A stretch of DNA of 21,248 bases from a virus. Both the position numbers and the translations under genes were made by a program. Below, piece by piece: positions 11,423 through 21,248 of the stretch (the first letter of the stretch is position 1; every line of letters starts with the position of its first letter). A model generated the notes under the pieces. The model ran no database searches and was not told the origin of the DNA. It was given only the letters and a program-made list of their open reading frames with translations. The stretch spans positions 1 to 21,248 of the IMG/VR virus record IMGVR_UViG_3300020175_000070; one strand, written 5' to 3'.

Positions 11423-12739
11423 ATGAAGAAATTTCTACTTCTAATGTTGTTGCCTGTTCTGGCAACAGCTCAAACATACACAGACGATGTTGCTGAGATT
11501 ATCAACAACAATTGTGTAACGTGTCACCGTCCTGGTGGCGTTGGCCCAATGAGTTTTGAGACATACGATCAAGTTAGACCATGGGCACCTCTTATTCAAA
11601 TGCGAGTAGCAAATAGAGAAATGCCTCCTTATGCTTACGACCAGCATATAGGTATCCAAGATCTTGAAGGTGACTGGAGATTGTCTGATGAACAAATTGC
11701 TACAATCGTTGATTGGGTAAATGCAGGTTCACCTTATGGTAATCTTGATATTGTACCTCAACTTCCTGAGATGCCTGATCCAGATGATTGGCGTTTCGCT
11801 GCAATGTTCGGACAACCAGACCTTATTGTTGCTTCACAGGCATATGATATTCCTGCCAAAGGTAATGACCTGTGGAGTAAAGAGTTTGTAGATCCTGGAC
11901 TTACTGAAAGCAGATGTATCAAAGCTGTTCAAGTAAAGCCAAGAGGTGATGCAGCAGCAGTAGTACATCACGCTAACTCTGACGTATATGTTTTTGACGA
12001 AGAAGGTGAACTTGTACCTTACGGCCAATTGACTGAATACGCTATGGGCAAGTGGGGTGAGTTAATGCCAGAGGGTGTTTGCCGAACCATGCCTGCTAAT
12101 TCACAAGTACGCTGGGATATTCATATGTTTCCAGGTGGTGTGGGTGCAACTGCTGAAGGTGGTATGATTAAAGACAATGTTGTAGAGATTGGTCTTTGGT
12201 TCCATGATGAAGATTATGCAGAAATAAACGATGTGTATAATCAAGACCTTCGTTTGTATGCTTTGAGAGAAGGTTATGAGAACGGGCATCTTATTATTCC
12301 TCCTCATGGCTATGCAATGACTCAAGGCTTTCATAGCTTTGACCATCCTGTCCGTATTGATAGTTTTCAACCACACGGTCATTTGCGTATGAACGCAGCT
12401 AGTTTAGAGATTTATTATCCTGAGACAGGACGTACAGAATCTATAAGTCAGATTTCAAATTGGTCAGCAACATGGCATCACAGTCATATATACGCAGAAG
12501 ATGTAGCACCTCTTGTTCCAACAGGTGCTGTATTAGTAATCAAGCAGTGGTATGACAATACTGTCGATAATCTTAACAATCCTGATCCTGATATGTGGGT
12601 AGTGGATGGCAGTAGAACGGGTGATGAGATGTCACACGCTTGGATTGCTGTAACACATTTGGATGATGAAGGATATGAAAAGATTTTAGCAAACAGAACT
12701 GAAAGTGAACAAAGGAGAATTGCATCAAGTGATGATTAG
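11423..12739 (+). CDS. Exported cytochrome c / PHM-like copper monooxygenase fusion
   Basis: A 438-residue periplasmic protein. Signal peptide MKKFLLLMLLPVLATA, with cleavage likely before Gln17. Residues 20-110 form a monohaem cytochrome c domain: CVTCH at 31-35, GGVGPMSF, and REMPPY with likely axial Met67. Residues 125-415 resemble type 2 copper monooxygenases (peptidylglycine alpha-hydroxylating / dopamine beta-monooxygenase fold): His182-His183 (VVHHAN), His234 (DIHMF), HxH at His318/His320 (QPHGHLRM), and Met403 in GDEMSHAW, comparable to the DEM copper-M methionine of PHM. The order HH...H...HxH...M fits both copper sites. Haem would be attached by the host Ccm system. Substrate unknown. 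First gene of the cassette, behind the late promoter switch. Confidence 0.88.
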   Translation: MKKFLLLMLLPVLATAQTYTDDVAEIINNNCVTCHRPGGVGPMSFETYDQVRPWAPLIQMRVANREMPPYAYDQHIGIQDLEGDWRLSDEQIATIVDWVNAGSPYGNLDIVPQLPEMPDPDDWRFAAMFGQPDLIVASQAYDIPAKGNDLWSKEFVDPGLTESRCIKAVQVKPRGDAAAVVHHANSDVYVFDEEGELVPYGQLTEYAMGKWGELMPEGVCRTMPANSQVRWDIHMFPGGVGATAEGGMIKDNVVEIGLWFHDEDYAEINDVYNQDLRLYALREGYENGHLIIPPHGYAMTQGFHSFDHPVRIDSFQPHGHLRMNAASLEIYYPETGRTESISQISNWSATWHHSHIYAEDVAPLVPTGAVLVIKQWYDNTVDNLNNPDPDMWVVDGSRTGDEMSHAWIAVTHLDDEGYEKILANRTESEQRRIASSDD

Positions 12740-13043
12740 AATTATTTTATTGATGGGACTTTTGTCTCAAGTTGTAGTAGCACAAGAGACTGATTTTAGT
12801 AGTATTGAAACAAATTGGAGAGTATGTGCTTCATGTCATGGTAACAAAGGTGAGGGGAAGCCAGGCTTCCCCTCACTAAACAAACTAACAAGCGAATACG
12901 TTATAGAAGCACTTACCGATTATAGGGATAGTGTTTATAGAGGCGACCAAAGTGCTATTATGTTTGGTATGGCAGCAGCCTTAACAGACGAACAAATTGA
13001 TTTGTTAGGCAAATACGCCGAAGAGGTTTTGAATGATGAATAA
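12732..13043 (+). CDS. Small exported monohaem cytochrome c
   Basis: A 103-residue periplasmic class I cytochrome c. Signal peptide MIRIILLMGLLSQVVVA, cut before Gln18. Haem motif CASCH at 32-36, followed by the family-typical GNKGEGKPGFPSL. Candidate axial Met77 or Met80 lies in AIMFGMAAALTDEQI, close to the C-terminal pattern of cytochromes c4/c5/c553. Expected role: one-electron carrier. ATG 12732 is chosen because it begins a clean signal peptide and overlaps the upstream stop by 8 bases (ATGATTAG). GTG 12729 and a GTG at 12705 are alternatives. An AGGAG lies 14 bases upstream. The coding sequence contains a 13-bp perfect palindrome. Confidence 0.9.
   Translation: MIRIILLMGLLSQVVVAQETDFSSIETNWRVCASCHGNKGEGKPGFPSLNKLTSEYVIEALTDYRDSVYRGDQSAIMFGMAAALTDEQIDLLGKYAEEVLNDE
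12850..12876 (+). repeat. Perfect GC-rich palindrome inside the cytochrome gene
   Basis: GTGAGGGGAAGCC (12850-12862) and GGCTTCCCCTCAC (12864-12876) are exact reverse complements around a single A. In RNA this gives a 12-bp stem with a 3-base loop plus an outer G-U pair. It spans codons 40-49, just after the haem motif. The codons used (GGG, AAG, GGC, TTC, CCC) are unusually GC-rich for this AT-rich gene. No T-run follows, so it is not a standard intrinsic terminator. Confidence 0.85.
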
Positions 13044-13731
13044 ACTATGGATACTAACAATCTTGTTTTGTACACAAGTTGTTGCACAAGACTTTGGTCT
13101 TATTGATACTGATGGAGTTTATCATAAGGCAAGTTATTATAGTAATTACGACCAAATAGCTGTTATGACTGCATCTTCTCAAAGTGATGCTGAAGCAAAG
13201 CAGAGATTTTTCTCAACTGTAAATGCTAAACCTGACTTCAAGTTTTTCCTTTTGAATCCTACAGGAGAAGGAAGGGATGTTGAGCAAAATGCTACCGATA
13301 GTAGAGTTGCTATGTTGATGGATGATGCAAAAATTGTTTCCAAAGCATTCGGTATGACACAACTTAATGAAGTTGTTTATATTGATACTGGTACGATGGA
13401 AGTTGGTTATAGAACAGTGCTTGCAGACGGTGAGCCCATAGAAACAGATTGGGGTGAGCCTTCCTATACTAATGATATAGCACCAATACTTATTGACAAT
13501 TGTGTTACCTGTCATAGGTATGGTGGTATAGGACCTTGGGCAATGACTGGTCACGCCATTGTTCAAGCATTTGGTCCTGCAATAAACGAAGCGTTGTTGA
13601 CATTACGTATGCCTCCTGGACAATTGGATCCAACTATAGGAGAGTTTACGAATGATATGAACTTAACTGTAGACGAACAACAAAAACTTATACAATGGAT
13701 AGCGAATGGAGCGCCTGCAGATTATGAATAA
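13036..13731 (+). CDS. Exported redoxin-like / cytochrome c fusion (redoxin cysteines absent)
   Basis: A 231-residue periplasmic protein. Signal peptide MNKLWILTILFCTQVVA, cut before Gln18. Residues 20-132 resemble a redoxin/thioredoxin-like domain (VAMLMDDAKIVSKAFGMTQL, then VVYIDTG, then YRTVLADG). The position where the peroxidatic CP would be reads TASSQS, and the mature domain has no Cys, so thiol chemistry is excluded. Residues 140-231 are a cytochrome c domain related to that of 11423-12739: CVTCHRYGGIGP (156-167) and LRMPPG with likely axial Met192. Bacterial proteins with redoxin, cytochrome c and PHM-like domains in one chain are known to me; this gene looks like the first two parts. 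Starts in an 8-base overlap (ATGAATAA). Confidence 0.82.
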   Translation: MNKLWILTILFCTQVVAQDFGLIDTDGVYHKASYYSNYDQIAVMTASSQSDAEAKQRFFSTVNAKPDFKFFLLNPTGEGRDVEQNATDSRVAMLMDDAKIVSKAFGMTQLNEVVYIDTGTMEVGYRTVLADGEPIETDWGEPSYTNDIAPILIDNCVTCHRYGGIGPWAMTGHAIVQAFGPAINEALLTLRMPPGQLDPTIGEFTNDMNLTVDEQQKLIQWIANGAPADYE

Positions 13732-14359
13732 ATTATTAAGCGTAATACTACTATTGCCTTCACTAGCTTTTGGTCTTGAAGAACCAAAATATGAAATGAT
13801 AGGTGAATATGATGATATTGAATATAGAGAATACGCCGACTATATTGTTGTTGAAACATTAGTTGAAGGAGACCATTCAAGAGACGAGGCTTCTAACATT
13901 GGCTTCAGACGATTGTTTAGATACATCACTGGAGAAAATGATGGTGGTACAGAAATTAGTATGACTGCACCTGTACAAGTAGCAGAACCTCAAGGAGCAG
14001 AGATAGCAATGACTGCTCCCGTGCAAAGCGTAAACACGGAACAAGGATGGACTATATCATTCGTTGTTCCAGGAAAATATACTTGGGATACTGTACCACA
14101 GCCCACAAACCCAGATGTTTACTTACGACAAGCATCACCTGGAAAAATTACAGCTGTGATACGATTCTCTGGTAGATGGACTGAGAAAAATGCACTAAAA
14201 GCACGTAACAAGTTATATGAAAAGTTAGAAGAAGTAAATGTTTCACCCGTAAGTAAACCAATCATAGCTGCATATAATTCACCTTTTTCAATACCTTGGT
14301 TTCGTAGAAATGAAATCTTGGTAGAGGTGGATACTGCACCACTAGAATACATTCTTTAG
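13724..14359 (+). CDS. Exported SOUL-family haem-binding protein
   Basis: A 211-residue protein with signal peptide MNKLLSVILLLPSLAFG and a full SOUL domain. KYEMIGEYDDIEYREYADY (22-40) leads to NIGFRRLFRYITGEN. Two ISMTAPV/IAMTAPV motifs follow (78-84 and 94-100), then AVIRFSGRW (144-152) and WFRRNEILVEV near the end. SOUL/HBP proteins bind haem or other tetrapyrroles non-covalently; bacterial roles are poorly defined. The neighbours are covalent haem proteins, so haem delivery, storage or shielding in the periplasm is a reasonable guess. ATG 13724 is preferred because it overlaps the previous stop by 8 bases (ATGAATAA) and starts the signal peptide. The in-frame ATG at 13706 only adds six residues. 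Confidence 0.92.
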   Translation: MNKLLSVILLLPSLAFGLEEPKYEMIGEYDDIEYREYADYIVVETLVEGDHSRDEASNIGFRRLFRYITGENDGGTEISMTAPVQVAEPQGAEIAMTAPVQSVNTEQGWTISFVVPGKYTWDTVPQPTNPDVYLRQASPGKITAVIRFSGRWTEKNALKARNKLYEKLEEVNVSPVSKPIIAAYNSPFSIPWFRRNEILVEVDTAPLEYIL

Positions 14360-14368
14360 GAGACTACA

Positions 14369-15319
14369 ATGAATAAATGGCTGGCACTTTTAACAGTATT
14401 GCCAACACTAGCATTAGCAGAAGATCCTCTCGCACTATATGAGGCTCCGACCACAAAATGGACTGGAGCTTTAGAACTAAATCGAGAGCCTGATCTAATT
14501 ATAGATCTACCTGCACAAGAAATACCTGCCACTGGTATGATTCCATATCGTTACGTGACAGTAGATATTCCCTTAGAGGAAGATCGCTGGGTACAAGCGA
14601 GTGAATGGTTGCCCGGTGATAGAACTGTACTACACCATACGCTAAATCAATTAGTGGCGCCTGATTCAAGACCTAGTTTTCAAGGCTTTCTTGGTAATCA
14701 ATCTGGCAGGGACTCAGATCAAGTAGATTTGGCTGCTTATGTTCCAGGTGGGACTGCTACAGTTTTTCCTGAGAACACTGGCGGATTACTCAAAACAGGG
14801 TCAAGCCTACAACTGCAACTACACTATACTACAAATGGAACCGCAGCAGTAGATCATTCTAAACTCGGTGTTTGGTTTTACCCAGAAGGCGAAGTACCTG
14901 AAGAAAGAATGACCGGTATGTGTGCTTGTATCTTCCCTGATGAATGGACTAACATTCCTCCAGGCGATCCTAACTTTGTACAAACACAAAGCATTAATGT
15001 CAGAAATGATATTGAACTACATACTTTCTTGCCTCATATGCACTGGAGAGGTAAGAGTATGAAGGCTGTAGCATATTATCCTGATGGTACACAAGAAGAT
15101 TTAATCAATGTTGCTAACTACGATTATGATTGGCAACTTGCTTATACATGGGAAGAACCTAAGTTTATTCCTACAGGAACAACCATCACTGTAGATGGTG
15201 CTTTTGATAATTCAGCAATGAATCCTGCAAACCCAGATCCTGAGCGTTCAGTACCTTGGGGGCAAATGTCAGAGGACGAAATGTTCTTTGGCGCAATGAC
15301 ATGGAAAAACCTAAAATAA
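14369..15319 (+). CDS. Exported PHM-like type 2 copper monooxygenase
   Basis: A 316-residue periplasmic protein with signal peptide MNKWLALLTVLPTLALA, cut before Glu18. Copper-ligand pattern of the PHM/DBM fold: His89-His90 (TVLHHTLNQ), His152 (LQLHYTT), His223/His225 (LPHMHWRG) and Met305 (SEDEMFFGAM), in the order and rough spacing expected for CuH and CuM. Cys185 and Cys187 (MCACIF) may form or extend a disulfide. It has no haem motif. It resembles the C-terminal part of bacterial redoxin-cytochrome-PHM proteins and is a paralogue of the copper half of 11423-12739. The Shine-Dalgarno TAGGAG overlaps the stop of the SOUL gene, seven bases before ATG. Substrate unknown. Confidence 0.87.
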   Translation: MNKWLALLTVLPTLALAEDPLALYEAPTTKWTGALELNREPDLIIDLPAQEIPATGMIPYRYVTVDIPLEEDRWVQASEWLPGDRTVLHHTLNQLVAPDSRPSFQGFLGNQSGRDSDQVDLAAYVPGGTATVFPENTGGLLKTGSSLQLQLHYTTNGTAAVDHSKLGVWFYPEGEVPEERMTGMCACIFPDEWTNIPPGDPNFVQTQSINVRNDIELHTFLPHMHWRGKSMKAVAYYPDGTQEDLINVANYDYDWQLAYTWEEPKFIPTGTTITVDGAFDNSAMNPANPDPERSVPWGQMSEDEMFFGAMTWKNLK

Positions 15320-15454: not shown

Positions 15455-15847
15455 ATGGGACTCAAGATTGCACTATTTGTTATACTTTTAGCATGCGCTG
15501 GTGGTGGTGCTGGCTATATCTATATCCAGAATCTTCAAAACGAGATAGAAGGTCAACGAAGAGTTATAGCAGCTCAAGATTTGGCCGATCAGCAACAAAA
15601 GCAAACCATTGCCTCGCTCCAGCAAAATCTTGAAACTCAAACAAATGCATTGCGTGTTCAAACACAAAGATCCCAAGAAATTGAAGTAGAGATGAACAGA
15701 TATCTTGATATCTTTCGTCGTCACAATTTAACTAAATTAGCGTCAGCCAGGCCTGGCCAAATAGAAACTCGTTTTAACACTAACACCAAGGAGGTATTCG
15801 ATGCGTTGGAAGCTGATAGCGCTGCCCTTGATAGCCTTGATGATTAG
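15455..15847 (+). CDS. Putative inner-membrane spanin (i-spanin)
   Basis: A 130-residue protein with one N-terminal transmembrane helix (about 4-24, IALFVILLACAGGGAGYIYI) and a Gln-rich coiled coil (25-85). A conserved-looking periplasmic end follows (RRHNLTKLASARPG, then TKEVFDALE). This is the layout of Rz-type i-spanins: anchored in the inner membrane, spanning the periplasm, and joining the outer-membrane lipoprotein to fuse membranes at lysis. The next gene overlaps it by 47 bases in another frame and encodes a lipoprotein, the classic overlapping spanin pair. Called from architecture and context rather than strong sequence identity. Confidence 0.78.
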   Translation: MGLKIALFVILLACAGGGAGYIYIQNLQNEIEGQRRVIAAQDLADQQQKQTIASLQQNLETQTNALRVQTQRSQEIEVEMNRYLDIFRRHNLTKLASARPGQIETRFNTNTKEVFDALEADSAALDSLDD

Positions 15848-16307
15848 TGGTTGCTCATTATTTGTTAGACCTCCTGTCGAAGTTGAAATACAAACAGTAG
15901 AAATTCCAATAGAGATAGCTCAACCACCTTTACCAAGAGCTATTGATATGAAAGAACCCAAATGGTATGTTGTCAGCGATAGGCGTATACCTAACCGTTG
16001 TGTCCGAGACGAAGAAACAAATGAGACACCGGTTAATGAAGATGGTACGTGTGGCCTTGGTAGGGAACATCCAGACTGGCCTGAGGGTTATACATACTTA
16101 GATAGATTCTTGGAGGACATAGTTGAAGAGTCGGATGCACTAGTCTTCACTGCTATGTCGATAGCTGATTATGAACTAATGAGTTACAATCTTCAAGAGA
16201 TAAGAAGATACGTGCAACAAATGAATGAAGTTATTGTTTATTACCGAAAAAACACCATGGTGAATAATTCAGATGATATAAATAAATCAGAAGGAAAGGA
16301 ACGGTAA
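15801..16307 (+). CDS. Putative outer-membrane lipoprotein spanin (o-spanin)
   Basis: A 168-residue lipoprotein. Signal MRWKLIALPLIALMISGC with lipobox ISGC and lipidated Cys18. A Pro/Val-rich stretch (RPPVEVEIQTVEIPIEIAQP) then PLPRAIDMKEPKWYVVSD follows, like the proline-rich periplasmic arm of Rz1-type proteins. It is longer than typical o-spanins and carries Cys67 and Cys84 (likely disulfide) plus a helical C-terminal domain. A near-perfect Shine-Dalgarno AAGGAGG (15788-15794) lies inside the i-spanin gene, which it overlaps by 47 bases. The stop overlaps the next start (TAATG). The late promoter 16277-16284 is embedded in its last codons. Confidence 0.75.
   Translation: MRWKLIALPLIALMISGCSLFVRPPVEVEIQTVEIPIEIAQPPLPRAIDMKEPKWYVVSDRRIPNRCVRDEETNETPVNEDGTCGLGREHPDWPEGYTYLDRFLEDIVEESDALVFTAMSIADYELMSYNLQEIRRYVQQMNEVIVYYRKNTMVNNSDDINKSEGKER
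16277..16284 (+). promoter_or_regulatory. T4-type late promoter (TATAAATA) inside the o-spanin 3' end
   Basis: An exact late core, 30 bases before the ATG at 16307, followed by AGGAAAGGA as ribosome site. It should drive the EF-hand membrane protein and, with no other late core seen before the fibres, the fibre genes as well. Confidence 0.7.
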
Positions 16308-16651
16308 TGGCTAAAAAACTTTCAGACGATTCAAAATATGCCAAGTACGATGCTGATGGTGATGGTATTGTTAGCGATGAAGAGATAGCAGCCTCGGAGA
16401 AGATTATGGAATTAGAGCATGAAAAAATTCGCATGGAAAATGAAGACAAGAAAGAGGACGCTATGCGTAAGATGGCATGGTTTGCTCTACTTGGAATGCT
16501 TCTTTATCCATTTGCAGTTATTATAGCTGAAGCAACAAATCACATACAAGCAAGTGAAATACTAGGGGATATGGCAGCAACATACTTTGTATCTGTTGCT
16601 GGTATCGTAGCAGCATTCTTTGGTGCGCAAGCACTGGCCAAGAAAAGTTAG
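16307..16651 (+). CDS. EF-hand two-TM membrane protein, holin candidate
   Basis: A 114-residue protein. The cytoplasmic-looking N-terminus holds a canonical EF-hand loop at 15-26 (DADGDGIVSDEE; D15, D17, D19, S23, E26). A charged helix (27-55) then leads to two transmembrane segments (about 56-76, MAWFALLGMLLYPFAVIIAE; and 92-112, TYFVSVAGIVAAFFGAQAL). Size, two TM helices and place next to the spanins suggest a holin, the pore former that releases the signal-less lysozyme. I recall similar EF-hand membrane proteins in marine phages. Calcium binding is predicted; calcium control of lysis is speculation. Its start overlaps the o-spanin stop by one base. Confidence 0.7.
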   Translation: MAKKLSDDSKYAKYDADGDGIVSDEEIAASEKIMELEHEKIRMENEDKKEDAMRKMAWFALLGMLLYPFAVIIAEATNHIQASEILGDMAATYFVSVAGIVAAFFGAQALAKKS

Positions 16652-16661
16652 GTAACCAATT

Positions 16662-18311
16662 ATGGCAACTAGAGCAAGATCAGGAGCGGATTTAGCGTCA
16701 ACAATTAACGCTAATACTTCAGCTCCATCAAATACAATTGTTGTATCGTCAAGTGGTAATATAACAACTGCCAATGACCTGTCACTATCAGGTCATCTAG
16801 TTGGCTACGTTAGTAATACCTACTTACAAGCAACCTTTGCACAGAACACTGCCACAGCCTCACTTGCAACAGACAGGTTACAGGTAGCTAATGCAGCAAC
16901 GACTTACTTAACCAAGTCTGTTTCATTAACATCTAACAACTCTTTAGTCAATCTAATTAATGACAGGGAACAGGTAGCAAACGCTAGTGTTTCATATGTA
17001 ACAAAGGCTGTTCACTTAACATCAAACAACGCATTGATCAATCTGATCAATGATAGGTACCAACCTGCTAACCTTGCTTCGGATCTTGTTAGCTACTGGC
17101 CAAGTGCTAACATCATTGCTTACGTAGGTAGTGCTGGTGGTGGCACTTCAATGCAAACCAATACCAGTATCTTTATTGCTACTGGTGGTGAGACAGAAGT
17201 AGCTATACCTTATTCGAATACTAATTACCTTTCGGTCAAGCTGAACGGTGTACGTTTGACTCCTGGAGAAGACTATACATCTGCCAACAATACCCATATT
17301 GGTAACATGCTCGCACTAGCAGCAGCTGACGTTTTGACGGTAACCGAATACAAACAACACACGGCCAACTTAGTCAATAGGTCATCTGGTGGTGGCGGTG
17401 GAGGTGGCTTCCAAGGATCTACGTCTGGATATTCATCTGGTGGTAGATGTGTACCTTCCTTTGGAGTAGTCAACATTATTGATAAATTTCCATTCAGCTC
17501 AGATTCTAATGCAACTGATGTTGGGGATTTGACTGTTGCAAGAGCGGGCGCATCTGGTCAATCATCGTCTGAAAATGGATATTCGTCTGGTGGTATCGCG
17601 CCTCCAACCAGTCCATACTCTAACATTATAGACAAATTTCCATTCAGCTCTGATTCAAATGCTACTGATGTAGGTGATTTAGTATTACCAGCAAGGGAGA
17701 CAGCTGGTCAATCATCGTCTGATAATGGTTATGTATCTGGTGGTAGTAGTCCCGCAGGCGGAGGTTATGTAAATTGTATTCAAAAATTTCCATTCAGCTC
17801 AGATTCCAATGCATCAGATATTGGTGATTTGACTGTTTGTAGATATGCGATGGCTGGTCAATCATCGTCTACTAATGGATATTCGTCAGGTGGTTCTGCA
17901 CCTCCATCCAGCAATGTTATAGACAAATTTCCATTTGCATCGGATGGAAATGCAACTGATGTTGGTGATTTGACCCTAGCGAGATTTCTTGTCGTTGGTC
18001 AATCATCGGACACTAGTGGTTATTCGTCTGGTGGTTCTCCTAGTGGTTCTCCTCCAATGGTGAACACAATTGACAAATTTCCATTCAGTTCTGATGCTAA
18101 CGCGACTGATGTTGGTGATTTGAGCTGTACAAGGTATCAAGGTGCTGGCCAGTCATCGACTACTAATGGATATTATTCTGGTGGCTATTCAAATCCACCT
18201 TATGGTAACCGCAGTGAAATAGATAAATTTCCATTCAGTTCTGATGCTAACGCGACAGCTGTCGGTAATTTAACCGTTGCACGGTTTATGCTGGCAGGAC
18301 AACAAGTTTAA
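16662..18311 (+). CDS. Tail fibre/adhesin with six kelch-like repeats (paralogue 1)
   Basis: A 549-residue fibre protein. N-terminal domain 1-70. Two 30-residue tandem repeats (71-100 and 101-130: DRLQVANAATTYLTKS..., DREQVANASVSYVTKA...). A beta domain follows (165-230, IFIATGGETEVAIPYSN, then VKLNGVRLTPGEDY). A Gly7 linker (243-249) precedes six repeats of about 47-50 residues (roughly 255-545). Each repeat has GYxSGG, then N-x-I-DKFPFSSD, then ATDVGDL and an AR...GQSS turn. This fits the kelch plan (GG doublet, YD-like, W/L-like, AR), so a six-bladed propeller is likely. Probable receptor binding at the tail or capsid surface. The start has GGTAAC just upstream. Confidence 0.78.
   Translation: MATRARSGADLASTINANTSAPSNTIVVSSSGNITTANDLSLSGHLVGYVSNTYLQATFAQNTATASLATDRLQVANAATTYLTKSVSLTSNNSLVNLINDREQVANASVSYVTKAVHLTSNNALINLINDRYQPANLASDLVSYWPSANIIAYVGSAGGGTSMQTNTSIFIATGGETEVAIPYSNTNYLSVKLNGVRLTPGEDYTSANNTHIGNMLALAAADVLTVTEYKQHTANLVNRSSGGGGGGGFQGSTSGYSSGGRCVPSFGVVNIIDKFPFSSDSNATDVGDLTVARAGASGQSSSENGYSSGGIAPPTSPYSNIIDKFPFSSDSNATDVGDLVLPARETAGQSSSDNGYVSGGSSPAGGGYVNCIQKFPFSSDSNASDIGDLTVCRYAMAGQSSSTNGYSSGGSAPPSSNVIDKFPFASDGNATDVGDLTLARFLVVGQSSDTSGYSSGGSPSGSPPMVNTIDKFPFSSDANATDVGDLSCTRYQGAGQSSTTNGYYSGGYSNPPYGNRSEIDKFPFSSDANATAVGNLTVARFMLAGQQV
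18066..18118 (+). repeat. 53-bp exact repeat shared with fibre 3
   Basis: Identical, base for base, to 20927-20979 in the third fibre gene, both covering the IDKFPFSSDANATDVGD part of a repeat unit. Other repeat units use different synonymous codons, so this identity suggests recent exchange rather than only protein-level conservation. Confidence 0.8.
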
Positions 18312-18335
18312 GGTAACTAAAGTTTAAGGTAACTA
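18304..18335 (+). repeat. Tandem 16-bp duplication at the fibre 1 end
   Basis: AAGTTTAAGGTAACTA occurs twice in direct tandem (18304-18319, 18320-18335), covering the stop of fibre 1 and the ribosome-site region of fibre 2. The same 16 bases appear once at the fibre 2/fibre 3 junction (19963-19978). It looks like a replication slippage or recombination scar at a shared gene boundary. Confidence 0.85.
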
Positions 18336-18338
18336 ACT

Positions 18339-19970
18339 ATGGCAACTAAAGCAAGAAGAGGTGGTAGTCTAGCTACCATATTAAATGCCAATACATCGGC
18401 AGCTTCAAACACGGTCGTAATAGACTCAGGCGGTGACATATCGCTATCTGGTAGTCTTACGGTAACAAGCGGTGTTGTTGGTTACGTTACCAACACAACA
18501 CTGCAAGCTGCATTTGCTCAGAACACAGCAATAACGTCACTCAATGCTGACTATTTGCAAGTCGCTAATGCTGATGTACTATATGTTACCAAGTCCACTG
18601 CACTAACGTCCAACAACTCGTTAATCAATCTAATCAATGATAGATATCAAGTTGCTAATGCTGATGTTAAGTTTGCAACTAAATCAGTTCAACTTACATC
18701 CAATAACTCGTTAATCAACTTAATCAACGACAGAATCCAGGCTGCTAACGTATCTACAACATTAGGTACTTATTGGCCAAGTGCAAACGTAATTGCGTAT
18801 ACGGATACAGTTGTAACTGGTTCAACAAAATCAGTAAACAGTAGCATTTATATTGCATCTGGTGGAGAGAATAGAGTCGCTATACCTTACACTAATACAA
18901 ACTACATGCTTGTTTATTTGAATGGTGTACTCTTAACTGAAGATACTGACTATGTTGCAGCTAACAATGTTCATATAGGAGGCATTGATCCAGTGCTTGC
19001 AGCTGGAGATGTTCTCCTCGTAGAAGAATATAAGAACCACAATGCAAACACGCAGAATAGATCAGCTGGTGGCGGTGGTGGATATAGTTTCCAGGGATCT
19101 ACTTCAGGATACACGTCTGGTGGTTATTACAGCCCACCGTATACGCAATCAAACGTTGTTGACAAATTTCCATTTAGTTCAGACACTAATGCAACAGATG
19201 TTGGTGATTTGACAGAGGGTCGAAGCGCAGCTGCTGGATCGAGCTCTACATCTAGTGGATACACTGCTGGTGGTTCGAACCCATCATCAGGTAAATCAAA
19301 TGTTATAGACAAATTTCCATTCGCATCAGATGGTAATGCTACAGACGTTGGTGACCTAACTGTAGCTAGAAATGGTATCCATGGTGGAGCAAGTTCTGAA
19401 GATAATGGTTACACATCTGGTGGTCGAAATCCATCGAATGCCACTGTCAACATTATTGATAAATTTCCATTTGCGTCAGATGGTAATGCAACAGATGTTG
19501 GTGATCTAATAGCGCCAACATGCCAATCATCAGGTCAGTCATCGACAACACATGGTTATCGTGCAGGGGGAAACAATGGATCCTGTAACGACATAGATAA
19601 ATTTGCTTTTGCATCTGATGGCAATGCAACGGATGTTGGTGATCTAGCTTTTGCAGGTATTGAAGGAGCTGGCCAGTCATCCTCAACACATGGTTATATG
19701 ACAGGTGGTGATCATCCAAGCAGTGGTGTGAATAATGTGATACAAAAGTTTCCTTTCAGTTCGGATGCCGGTTCATCTGATGTAGGAGATTCAACTCAGC
19801 CACGTTTTGGAGGTGCTGGTCAATCATCAACAGTTTCTGGTTATATAAGTGGAGGTCGACATCCATATTTGAATGTTATAGAAAAATTTCCTTTTAGTTC
19901 TGATACTAATGGAGCTGATGTTGGTGATTTGACAGTCGCACGTACACGGCCAGTAGGACAACAAGTTTAA
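18339..19970 (+). CDS. Tail fibre/adhesin with six kelch-like repeats (paralogue 2)
   Basis: A 543-residue paralogue of the preceding fibre with the same architecture in the same register: N-terminal domain, two 30-residue repeats (71-130, DYLQVANADVLYVTKS... and DRYQVANADVKFATKS...), the beta domain, a Gly-rich linker (AGGGGGYSF), and six kelch-like repeats ending GQQV. Its repeat units diverge more than those of fibre 1, for example one with IDKFAFASDGNATDVGDLAF and one with IQKFPFSSDAGSSDVGDS. N-terminal conservation with repeat divergence suggests a common attachment point with different binding surfaces. Ribosome site AAGGTAAC nine bases before ATG. Confidence 0.78.
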   Translation: MATKARRGGSLATILNANTSAASNTVVIDSGGDISLSGSLTVTSGVVGYVTNTTLQAAFAQNTAITSLNADYLQVANADVLYVTKSTALTSNNSLINLINDRYQVANADVKFATKSVQLTSNNSLINLINDRIQAANVSTTLGTYWPSANVIAYTDTVVTGSTKSVNSSIYIASGGENRVAIPYTNTNYMLVYLNGVLLTEDTDYVAANNVHIGGIDPVLAAGDVLLVEEYKNHNANTQNRSAGGGGGYSFQGSTSGYTSGGYYSPPYTQSNVVDKFPFSSDTNATDVGDLTEGRSAAAGSSSTSSGYTAGGSNPSSGKSNVIDKFPFASDGNATDVGDLTVARNGIHGGASSEDNGYTSGGRNPSNATVNIIDKFPFASDGNATDVGDLIAPTCQSSGQSSTTHGYRAGGNNGSCNDIDKFAFASDGNATDVGDLAFAGIEGAGQSSSTHGYMTGGDHPSSGVNNVIQKFPFSSDAGSSDVGDSTQPRFGGAGQSSTVSGYISGGRHPYLNVIEKFPFSSDTNGADVGDLTVARTRPVGQQV

Positions 19971-19981
19971 GGTAACTAACT

Positions 19982-21248
19982 ATGGTAACTAGAGCTAGAT
20001 TTTCAGCAGACTTAGTATCAACGGTCAATGCTAATACTTCGTCCCCAGCTAATGCGATATTCATTAGTTCGGGTGGTGATGTTACCATTGCAAACAGTAT
20101 TACCGTTGGTGGTAACATTACTGGATTTGTTCAGAACACATATCTGTATTCGACGTTTGCACAAAACACAGTAACGACAAATCTTTTTGATGACAGGCTA
20201 CAGGTTGCCAACGCTGCAACAACTTACGTTACTAAGTCTGTACATTTAACATCCAATAACGCATTAATCAACCTGATCAATGATAGAATTCAGATTGCCA
20301 ATGCTGATACAACATATGTTACTAAATCGGTAGCATTGAGTTCGAATACAGCTCTTGTTGGTCTCATCAATGACCGACTTCAGGTAGCAAACTTAACTAG
20401 TGAGTTATCTACTTACTGGCCAAGTGCTAATGCAATAACATACATCAATGCAAATGCTACTGCCAGTGACATGACCGTCAATACAAGTATCTTTGTAGCA
20501 TCTGGTGGAGAGACATCAGTAGAAGTACCTGTAACATCTAACAATAACTTACTACAAGTTTATCTAAACGGTTTTGCTCTGTCAAGAAGTATTGACTGGA
20601 CAGCCAACTCGACACACATCAAAGGTATTGAAGCACTGGCAGCTGGTGACATTGTACAGGTTCATGAATACAAACTACACCCTGCCAACACATTAAACAG
20701 ATCAGCTGGTGGTGGCGGTGGTGGCGGTGGTGGTATCGGAGGATCAACATCTGGATATACGTCAGGTGGTGAACCGACCTTGAATACTATTGATAAATTT
20801 GCATTTGCTTCTGATGGCAATGCATCTGATGTTGGAGATCTGACCCTAGCAAGAGGTGATGTAGCAGGTCAATCCTCGACTGCGAGTGGATACACTTCAG
20901 GTGGTTACGGTCCCACAATTGTGAATACAATTGACAAATTTCCATTCAGTTCTGATGCTAACGCGACTGATGTTGGTGACTTAACGCTAGCAAGAAAGGG
21001 GGGTGCAGGTCAATCCTCGACTGCGAGTGGATACACTTCAGGTGGATCTGCTCCACCTTATTCTAATGTTGTTGATAAATTTCCATTTGCGTCAGATGGT
21101 AATGCAACGGATGTAGGCGACTTAACACTTGCTCGAGGTGCCATCGGAGCAGGTCAATCGTCGTCAGCTTCTGGATATACATCAGGTGGTTTTCCTACCA
21201 CCGGTGGTGTAATTGATAAATTTCCATTCGCATCAGATAGTAATGGGC
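19982..21248 (+). CDS. Tail fibre/adhesin with kelch-like repeats (paralogue 3, partial)
   Basis: The open frame runs off the window end (422 codons visible). It begins MVTRARFSADLVSTVNANTS and repeats the architecture of the two upstream fibres: the 30-residue repeats (DRLQVANAATTYVTKS and relatives), a beta domain (SIFVASGGETSVEVPV), a longer Gly9 linker (AGGGGGGGGGIGG), then at least three and a half kelch-like repeats. Two adjacent repeats carry an identical 41-bp segment (20864-20904 and 21005-21045), and one shares 53 bp with fibre 1. By analogy about two more repeats should lie beyond the window. Confidence 0.77.
   Translation, partial: MVTRARFSADLVSTVNANTSSPANAIFISSGGDVTIANSITVGGNITGFVQNTYLYSTFAQNTVTTNLFDDRLQVANAATTYVTKSVHLTSNNALINLINDRIQIANADTTYVTKSVALSSNTALVGLINDRLQVANLTSELSTYWPSANAITYINANATASDMTVNTSIFVASGGETSVEVPVTSNNNLLQVYLNGFALSRSIDWTANSTHIKGIEALAAGDIVQVHEYKLHPANTLNRSAGGGGGGGGGIGGSTSGYTSGGEPTLNTIDKFAFASDGNASDVGDLTLARGDVAGQSSTASGYTSGGYGPTIVNTIDKFPFSSDANATDVGDLTLARKGGAGQSSTASGYTSGGSAPPYSNVVDKFPFASDGNATDVGDLTLARGAIGAGQSSSASGYTSGGFPTTGGVIDKFPFASDSNG
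20864..21045 (+). repeat. Pair of identical 41-bp direct repeats within fibre 3
   Basis: Bases 20864-20904 and 21005-21045 are identical over 41 positions (both encode AGQSSTASGYTSGG), spaced 141 bp apart, exactly one repeat unit of 47 codons. This indicates recent duplication of a whole propeller-repeat unit by in-frame recombination. Confidence 0.8.

Follow-up and report, generated by a model that had tools for sequence, protein, structure and literature searches.

The three tandem genes at the 3' end of the window, by which we mean the whole stretch of 21,248 nucleotides analysed here, probably encode phage tail fibres. Each fibre would consist of an anchor and stalk and a six-bladed kelch-type receptor-binding tip, with the propeller module exchanged slot by slot. 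The basis for this is observed: the repeats, the constancy of six units, the predicted fold, the variability of the loops, the structural-gene neighbourhood in relatives and the slot-wise replacement of propellers.

The fibre genes

The sequence-only reading of this DNA had described three tandem paralogues with common N-terminal domains, 30-residue repeats and Gly linkers. The ORFs, direct repeats and identities all agree with that description. Over their full length fibre 2 is 60% and fibre 3 is 63% identical to fibre 1. By region the three are 55-61% identical in the N-terminal parts and 60-65% in the repeat parts. The direct repeats in the window are tandem 90-nt (30-residue) stalk repeats, Gly-rich linkers and 16 copies of the unit core, and a leader of type AAGGTAACTAACTATGG also recurs among the fibre genes (direct-repeat family D13). 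The units are about 47 residues long (43-50) and share the frame GYxSGG...NxIDKFPFxSDxNATDVGDLTxxR...GQSS. Six units had been claimed for fibres 1 and 2 and at least three and a half for the visible part of fibre 3, and we count 6, 6 and 3.5. Fibre 3 is unreadable past that point because the record itself has only 21,248 bases.

Table 1. Positions of the fibre genes, their parts and their upstream neighbours in the window.
Feature	Position	Strand	Remarks
Two overlapping spanin-like genes, upstream of fibres	15455-15847, 15801-16307	+	PHROG Rz-like spanin matches
Small membrane protein just upstream of fibre 1	16307..16651	+	weak, sub-threshold holin-X match
Fibre 1 gene	16662-18311	+	ORF, 549 aa
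Fibre 1 N-terminal stalk/anchor, 251 aa	16662..17414	+	30-residue repeats 16911-17093; Gly linker near 17387
Fibre 1 propeller, six units	17415..18308	+	unit spacing 50, 50, 50, 47, 50
Fibre 1/fibre 2 junction	18309..18338	+	stop codon + 27 nt; 16-nt leader stretch doubled before fibre 2 start
Fibre 2 gene	18339-19970	+	ORF, 543 aa
Fibre 2 N-terminal stalk/anchor, 252 aa	18339..19094	+	repeats 18588-18770; Gly linker near 19067
Fibre 2 propeller, six units	19095..19967	+	unit spacing 50, 50, 49, 46, 49; modelled residues 254-543
Fibre 2/fibre 3 junction	19968..19981	+	stop codon + 11 nt
Fibre 3 gene	19982-21247	+	ORF, 422 aa, cut by record end
Fibre 3 N-terminal stalk/anchor, 252 aa	19982..20737	+	repeat 20231-20323; Gly linker near 20713
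Fibre 3 propeller, cut by record end	20738..21247	+	three full units + 25 residues of fourth (~3.5)

The repeat region is predicted to be a propeller

Fibre 2 was modelled as a single chain with AlphaFold2 using 79 aligned sequences. The model is a closed propeller with four strands per unit and a block-mean pLDDT of 86-98 from residue 251 on; before residue 250, in the anchor, confidence is mostly low. The best solved matches in a Foldseek search with this model (E 1.7e-18) are designed six-bladed kelch propellers, human KLHL12 and Keap1. By VIA it gives a Z of 41.0 and an rmsd of 1.7 A over 277 residues against the designed propeller 7onc, and a Z of 39.8 against Keap1 (1x2j). A degenerate paralogue, L009:12748-14028, is 25% identical to fibre 2 and is modelled, at moderate confidence, with six four-stranded units (Z 35.0, mean pLDDT 64). 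A closed six-bladed kelch-type propeller is thus supported for the repeat region of fibre 2 as a high-confidence prediction. This is the fold that had been expected from six units, and the monomer prediction closed instead of giving extended, non-propeller repeats. In the DSSP order of the model strand b comes first in the chain and strand a last, and the disc would then be closed by a strand from the nearly invariant GQQV end.

Kelch repeats as a sequence family have a conserved Tyr/Trp pair. The double glycine in the second strand is present here (G at column 5 in 936 and at column 6 in 944 of 1002 units), there is no conserved Trp column in the 1002 aligned units, and F is found instead of Y at the likely Tyr place. 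No Pfam Kelch family matched at E 0.001 in 79 proteins (the three fibres plus relatives), where six other families did, and a search with only the three fibres gave none even at E up to 1. "Kelch-like" must therefore be understood as a statement about fold and not about sequence family. Searching the PDB by sequence with fibre 2 alone found nothing relevant; a profile search found three matches only, all of them kelch chains (E 0.016-0.08). Pfam matches to DUF4907, NucA/NucB and THDPS_M are short and, where shown, inside the repeats, and we regard them as chance. The DUF4907 match in fibre 1 passes the curated cut-off. The PHROG family phrog_19111 matches 77 of the 79 proteins, and the N-termini of some relatives match TIG (3/79), Mtd_N (2/79) and tail-fibre PHROGs.

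Six units across the family

A profile of 13 window units was searched against every ORF of the window and of 65 related viral loci (numbered with an L below). It found 270 ORFs with units, 249 of them uncut, and exactly six units in 241 of the 249. The loci of this set are those that best matched a query with six units, and some of the contigs overlap. After clustering at 90% the figure is 167 of 172. Unit length is 44-52 residues in 913 of the 1002 units, which is inside the kelch repeat range of about 44-56 residues. Chance repeats can be rejected, since hundreds of genes share the number of units and their spacing. The exceptions were reread by eye. Those in L020, L024, L067 and L009 (with copies in L012 and L019) appear to be diverged six-unit proteins, and the one in L047 is an 84-residue remnant. 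L019 also has a five-unit allele where the L012 allele has six, which is either a true loss or an assembly collapse. The cyanophage S-SKS1, a distant cousin, has ORFs of nine units, so six is not universal beyond the family. A very different repeat number in fibre 3 would have spoken against a shared architecture. Its 3.5 visible units and the six units of its homologue in L005 do not point that way.

One variable face

Across the 1002 units variability peaks in the columns that follow GYxSGG and in those that follow DLT, and insertions are concentrated at columns 7-13. According to the DSSP of the model these columns are the BC and DA loops, which lie on one side of the antiparallel four-stranded blade. 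Keap1 uses the BC/DA side of its propeller for ligands. Mean column entropy is 2.52 bits in BC+DA versus 1.34 in CD+AB, a difference reached by 93 of 20,000 permutations in a test that takes its loop borders from the DSSP of the first unit alone and assumes independent columns. The dN/dS ratio is 0.99 in BC, 0.91 in DA, 0.54 in AB, 0.39 in the N-terminal part and 0.12 in the core, over 12 hand-picked pairs (11 from 197 pairs of 70-99.9% identity, plus window/L005; gapped columns excluded). Pooled dN/dS is not above 1, and the loop variability could also be compatible with another selective pressure or with relaxed constraint.

We also considered amplification blade by blade and inheritance of blades by position. 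The signal for these is weak. For 69 of 300 units the closest unit of another protein stands at the same blade index (50 expected), and blades are 60.4% identical within the same protein versus 56.9% otherwise.

Probable exchange of propellers between phages

The N-terminal parts of the relatives range from 26 to 316 residues, taking the first Met after a stop as the start (possibly wrong for some genes), and many groups of them have no detectable mutual similarity. Comparisons within and between loci used one locus from each of 37 groups of linked loci. Anchor identity is 30% within a locus versus 19% between loci. Propeller identity is 58.8% within versus 57.0% between (406 and 1500 pairs), so recent tandem duplication inside one phage is unsupported for most genes. 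L016 and L055 (the contig containing the L018 sequence) have an 88% identical propeller on different anchors (22%). L036 and L053 show the reverse, with one identical anchor (100%) bearing propellers that are 58% identical. Judged from these alignments, anchor and propeller are uncoupled in both directions.

Two sister pairs, selected for showing exchange, make the point slot by slot. The flanks of L036 and L053 outside the propeller genes are 97.7% identical over 5107 positions. In slots 1-5 their propellers have nucleotide identities of 63.6, 98.6, 56.0, 67.0 and 99.6%, and their anchors 99, 97, 90, 88 and 90%, the fifth gene being cut. L034 and L060 have flanks that are 99.6% identical over 4855 positions. 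Their propellers in slots 3 and 5 are 62.2 and 66.6% identical on anchors of 90% and 100%. In slot 4 both parts are close (96.1% for the propeller, 97% for the anchor); in slot 2 it is the anchor that has changed (54%), under a propeller of 82%. There is no propeller exchange in some other nearly identical contig pairs, for example L018/L055 and L045/L053. For a role in specificity, we regard the replacement of single propellers amid conserved surroundings as the most direct evidence.

The window has a similar relation to its nearest relative, L005, which has two genes of the fibre kind. The first is cut at its start, is fibre-3-like and has six units. Its anchor is 89.7% identical to that of fibre 3 over 175 aa and its propeller 77.2% identical over 167 residues, a smaller divergence than that of the fibre 1 propeller from its own counterpart and a point against our reading. 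The second gene is that counterpart, an orthologue of fibre 1 with a 90.8% identical anchor and a 62.5% identical propeller, and the leader before it is the leader before fibre 1. The two genes stand in the opposite order to those of the window, and the L005 contig begins inside its first gene. A primase, a ribonucleotide reductase and a sugar nucleotidyltransferase-like gene (the last assigned by eye) lie 3' of the L005 array. The NDRxQVAN-type stalk of the window recurs in a baseplate-region fibre ORF of L054.

One can imagine a more elaborate tip-exchange system, which we put forward only tentatively. Each virion would bear many fibres whose anchors are specific to the phage, and entire six-bladed tips would be swapped between slots and phages via two conserved stretches, QGSTSGY at the border of anchor and propeller and GQQV at the end. 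Near-identical phages would then differ mainly in their tip set, and the products of the sulfotransferase and oxygenase genes nearby may act on the tips or on what these bind.

Genomic neighbourhood and function

Runs of at least two adjacent propeller genes are found in 52 of 66 sources, and the longest run is nine. Near the arrays in relatives there are neck genes (head-tail adaptor and head closure; T4-like) and sheath, tail-fibre, collagen and S74-chaperone genes, and propeller genes do occur among tail structural genes there. The window array has spanins as its upstream neighbours and no neck genes alongside, which counts against the tail-fibre reading. Propeller units are found in 0 of 80 loci anchored on the spanin gene and in 0 of 80 anchored on the cytochrome gene, both lower bounds with many loci short or cut; with two more loci added the spanin-anchored set has 1 of 82, the L005 contig. 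A divergent query, L009:7544-8818, matched only itself, S-SKS1 is the only named phage with relatives (two records of the same phage), and a pattern search of cellular genomes, reaching close relatives only, found one relative on a MAG contig.

It is worth considering whether the propellers instead decorate the virion, act as enzymes on glycans of the surface or are set free by the infected cell. The kelch fold is found in proteins of many functions. Genes for a sulfotransferase and for 2OG-Fe(II) oxygenases are frequent next to the arrays, the former in 23 of 66 sources and three kinds of the latter in 38, 21 and 11, and a methyltransferase gene is near arrays in 17 (these counts were set beside loci from another genome region, a comparison that is no control). 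Kelch proteins of jumbo phages, including Erwinia phage pEa_SNUABM_12, have no known function, and it is described as not elucidated in the available text of a 2020 paper (PMC7760394). However, the anchors of some relatives resemble tail-fibre modules, the arrays adjoin tail and neck genes, and tips are exchanged by slot between sister phages. We consider such a role unlikely. The sequences and the exchange both have the layout of a tail fibre, with an N-terminal anchor, which would sit on the virion, and a variable C-terminal tip.

Expression of the arrays

The fibre genes of the window are 11-27 nt apart and have matching leader sequences. A promoter scan of the window gave fewer matches than shuffles did. 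Terminator-like sites are in excess in the window (6 versus a mean of 3.0 in shuffles); two are on the + strand at 16593-16615, before fibre 1, and none on that strand lies between the fibre genes. A diversity-generating retroelement was also sought by a reverse-transcriptase motif scan of the propeller loci, and the sole ORF flagged turned out to be a baseplate wedge-like protein. The sequence-only reading had proposed a built-in host-range reservoir, and for a switchable one we find no support: the gaps are short, the leaders match, and the scans gave no promoter excess, no + strand terminator between the genes and, by motif, no reverse transcriptase. It is more likely that all three fibres are made together, and the diversity seems to come from phages of the population exchanging sequence with one another. 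That the three make one mixed fibre, as the same reading suggested, is a conjecture. The other part of that proposal, that the fibres are receptor binders, fares better, as a binding role fits the one-face loop variability and the slot-wise exchange.

A stronger version of switching would make the arrays largely silent cassettes that are switched singly to change host range. The many paralogues per phage, in runs of up to nine, and the independent assortment of anchors and propellers could be read this way. Yet every gene has its own anchor and start codon, neighbouring genes are mostly less than about 40 nt apart (eight sources), and the scans gave neither a promoter excess nor, by motif, a reverse transcriptase. 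Close packing and separate start codons disfavour switching, and we hold this scenario to be quite improbable. An extended or open solenoid is very improbable indeed for the repeats: single-blade differences do occur (L019 with five units versus L012 with six), but six units are the near-constant rule and the model closes with high confidence.

We argue for tail fibres as follows. Each gene would encode a tail-fibre protein in which an anchor and stalk carry, at the C-terminus, a closed six-bladed kelch-type beta-propeller. In the propeller the strands and the CD side would stay constant, and the BC and DA loops of the six blades would form one variable face that most likely binds a host surface component. 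We infer that the proteins are present in the virion, form trimeric fibres and bind a receptor. Several fibres lie in one co-directional run, so the phage probably displays several tips at once. The anchors would stay fixed in each gene slot, matched to the virion, and the propeller bodies would be replaced slot by slot through recombination with other phages.

Relation to known propellers

Keap1, KLHL12 and the designed SAKe6 propellers resemble the fibres in having six four-stranded blades, the GG doublet and a disc closed by the chain ends (Z 39-41). They differ in sequence, with 14-22% identity to the fibre propeller, whose unit lacks the conserved Trp column and a Pfam Kelch match. The fibre propellers sit on phage stalks and not on BTB/BACK modules.

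Propellers are known among phage receptor-binding proteins. That of phage phi11, Gp45, has a five-bladed propeller platform and was solved as a trimer, and the same paper lists PRD1 P2 (five blades) and phiKZ gp131C (seven blades) (PMC4901313). Gp45 is like the fibres in that a propeller on a stalk is the host-recognition module. It has five blades instead of six, and the available text of that paper mentions neither near-symmetric kelch units nor gene arrays. The jumbo phage vB_PcaM_CBB has several kelch propellers (CBB_550, 552, 554), one of them found in virions (PMC5259590), and CBB kelch proteins appear among the structural-search matches of the fibre 2 model. Several propellers per phage is a likeness to our arrays, but slot-wise exchange is not described in the parts of the jumbo-phage papers available. 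Pelagimyophages and cyanomyophages have a hypervariable host recognition cluster, a tail-fibre island between VrlC and gp14 (neck) (PMC7029224). The propeller arrays in relatives occupy a like setting, although in its available text that paper does not use the word kelch or describe propeller arrays. A Kelch-repeat protein has been noted in cyanophage P-HM2 (PMC3037559), and Kelch repeats are enriched in long-read marine viral data (PMC9238414), as far as the available text of each goes. In that of PMC10674732 and PMC13331135 "kelch" is only an author name or part of one.

Propeller receptor-binding proteins (phi11 Gp45, PRD1 P2, phiKZ gp131C) and jumbo-phage kelch proteins are therefore already known. 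Tandem arrays of kelch-tipped fibres were not found described in the literature searched, which covers the accessible text of open papers, with subscription papers and preprints outside it. Nor did that literature yield a case of kelch tips that are near-symmetric, six-bladed, arranged in tandem and replaced slot by slot. The family phrog_19111 is annotated as "unknown function", and its name was not found in the same literature.

What the arrays mean

The analysis offers a concrete, testable role for phrog_19111, an abundant unnamed phage family, and for phage kelch proteins. A near-symmetric six-blade scaffold with one variable face would be a natural counterpart of designed binding scaffolds. 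Between sisters the propeller is swapped and its mounting and surroundings are kept, in keeping with a set of interchangeable tips that grip the host. Through arrays whose tips are replaced slot by slot there would be a direct route to how phages of near-identical DNA differ in host recognition.

Haem and redox genes of the window

All five genes of the window cluster have signal-peptide-like starts. The haem-c motif CVTCH occurs in two of them and CASCH in one, and a SOUL haem-binding protein is also encoded here (Pfam E 2.6e-44). The five genes are read as a redox cluster carried by the phage, with a probable periplasmic location. The HMH-containing protein had no match in Pfam or PDB. By eye, the first gene resembles copper monooxygenases. 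Relatives of this gene are carried by 202 viral stretches, and in the best 80 of these, which were retained (67-94% identity), a lysozyme-like gene often adjoins it.

Coordinates of the features discussed
Feature	Source	Positions
Five adjoining genes, putative redox cluster	Window	11423-15319
Repeat array related to propeller family	L210 (cyanophage S-SKS1)	194266-208007
Array-associated enzyme genes (examples; similar loci occur)	L024	13318-15515
	L008	10894-14496
918-residue ORF, mostly DRMQVAN-type stalk repeats, following gp5-like gene	L054	8580-11336

Propeller and stalk repeats

The S-SKS1 array lies close to the end of the linear record. It includes ORFs with nine units, some frames are broken, and one nine-unit stretch has no annotated gene. 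Two viral loci differ by one blade: L019:1857-2894 has five units and L012:2315-3499 has six, but the genes are otherwise nearly identical. Either the five-unit gene is a deletion allele, or the assembly collapsed there. The L054 ORF shares its stalk motif with the window fibres; the gp5-like call was made by eye. A motif match in another locus, L038:13542-16868, suggested a reverse transcriptase, but this was a false lead, as PHROG gives a baseplate wedge-like protein.

Enzymes beside the arrays

Among 66 sources (65 related loci and the window), genes that recur beside or between the propeller arrays encode 2OG-Fe(II) oxygenases (in 38 sources), an unknown protein (33), a sulfotransferase (23) and a methyltransferase (17). 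The products of these neighbours might modify the tips or host glycans.
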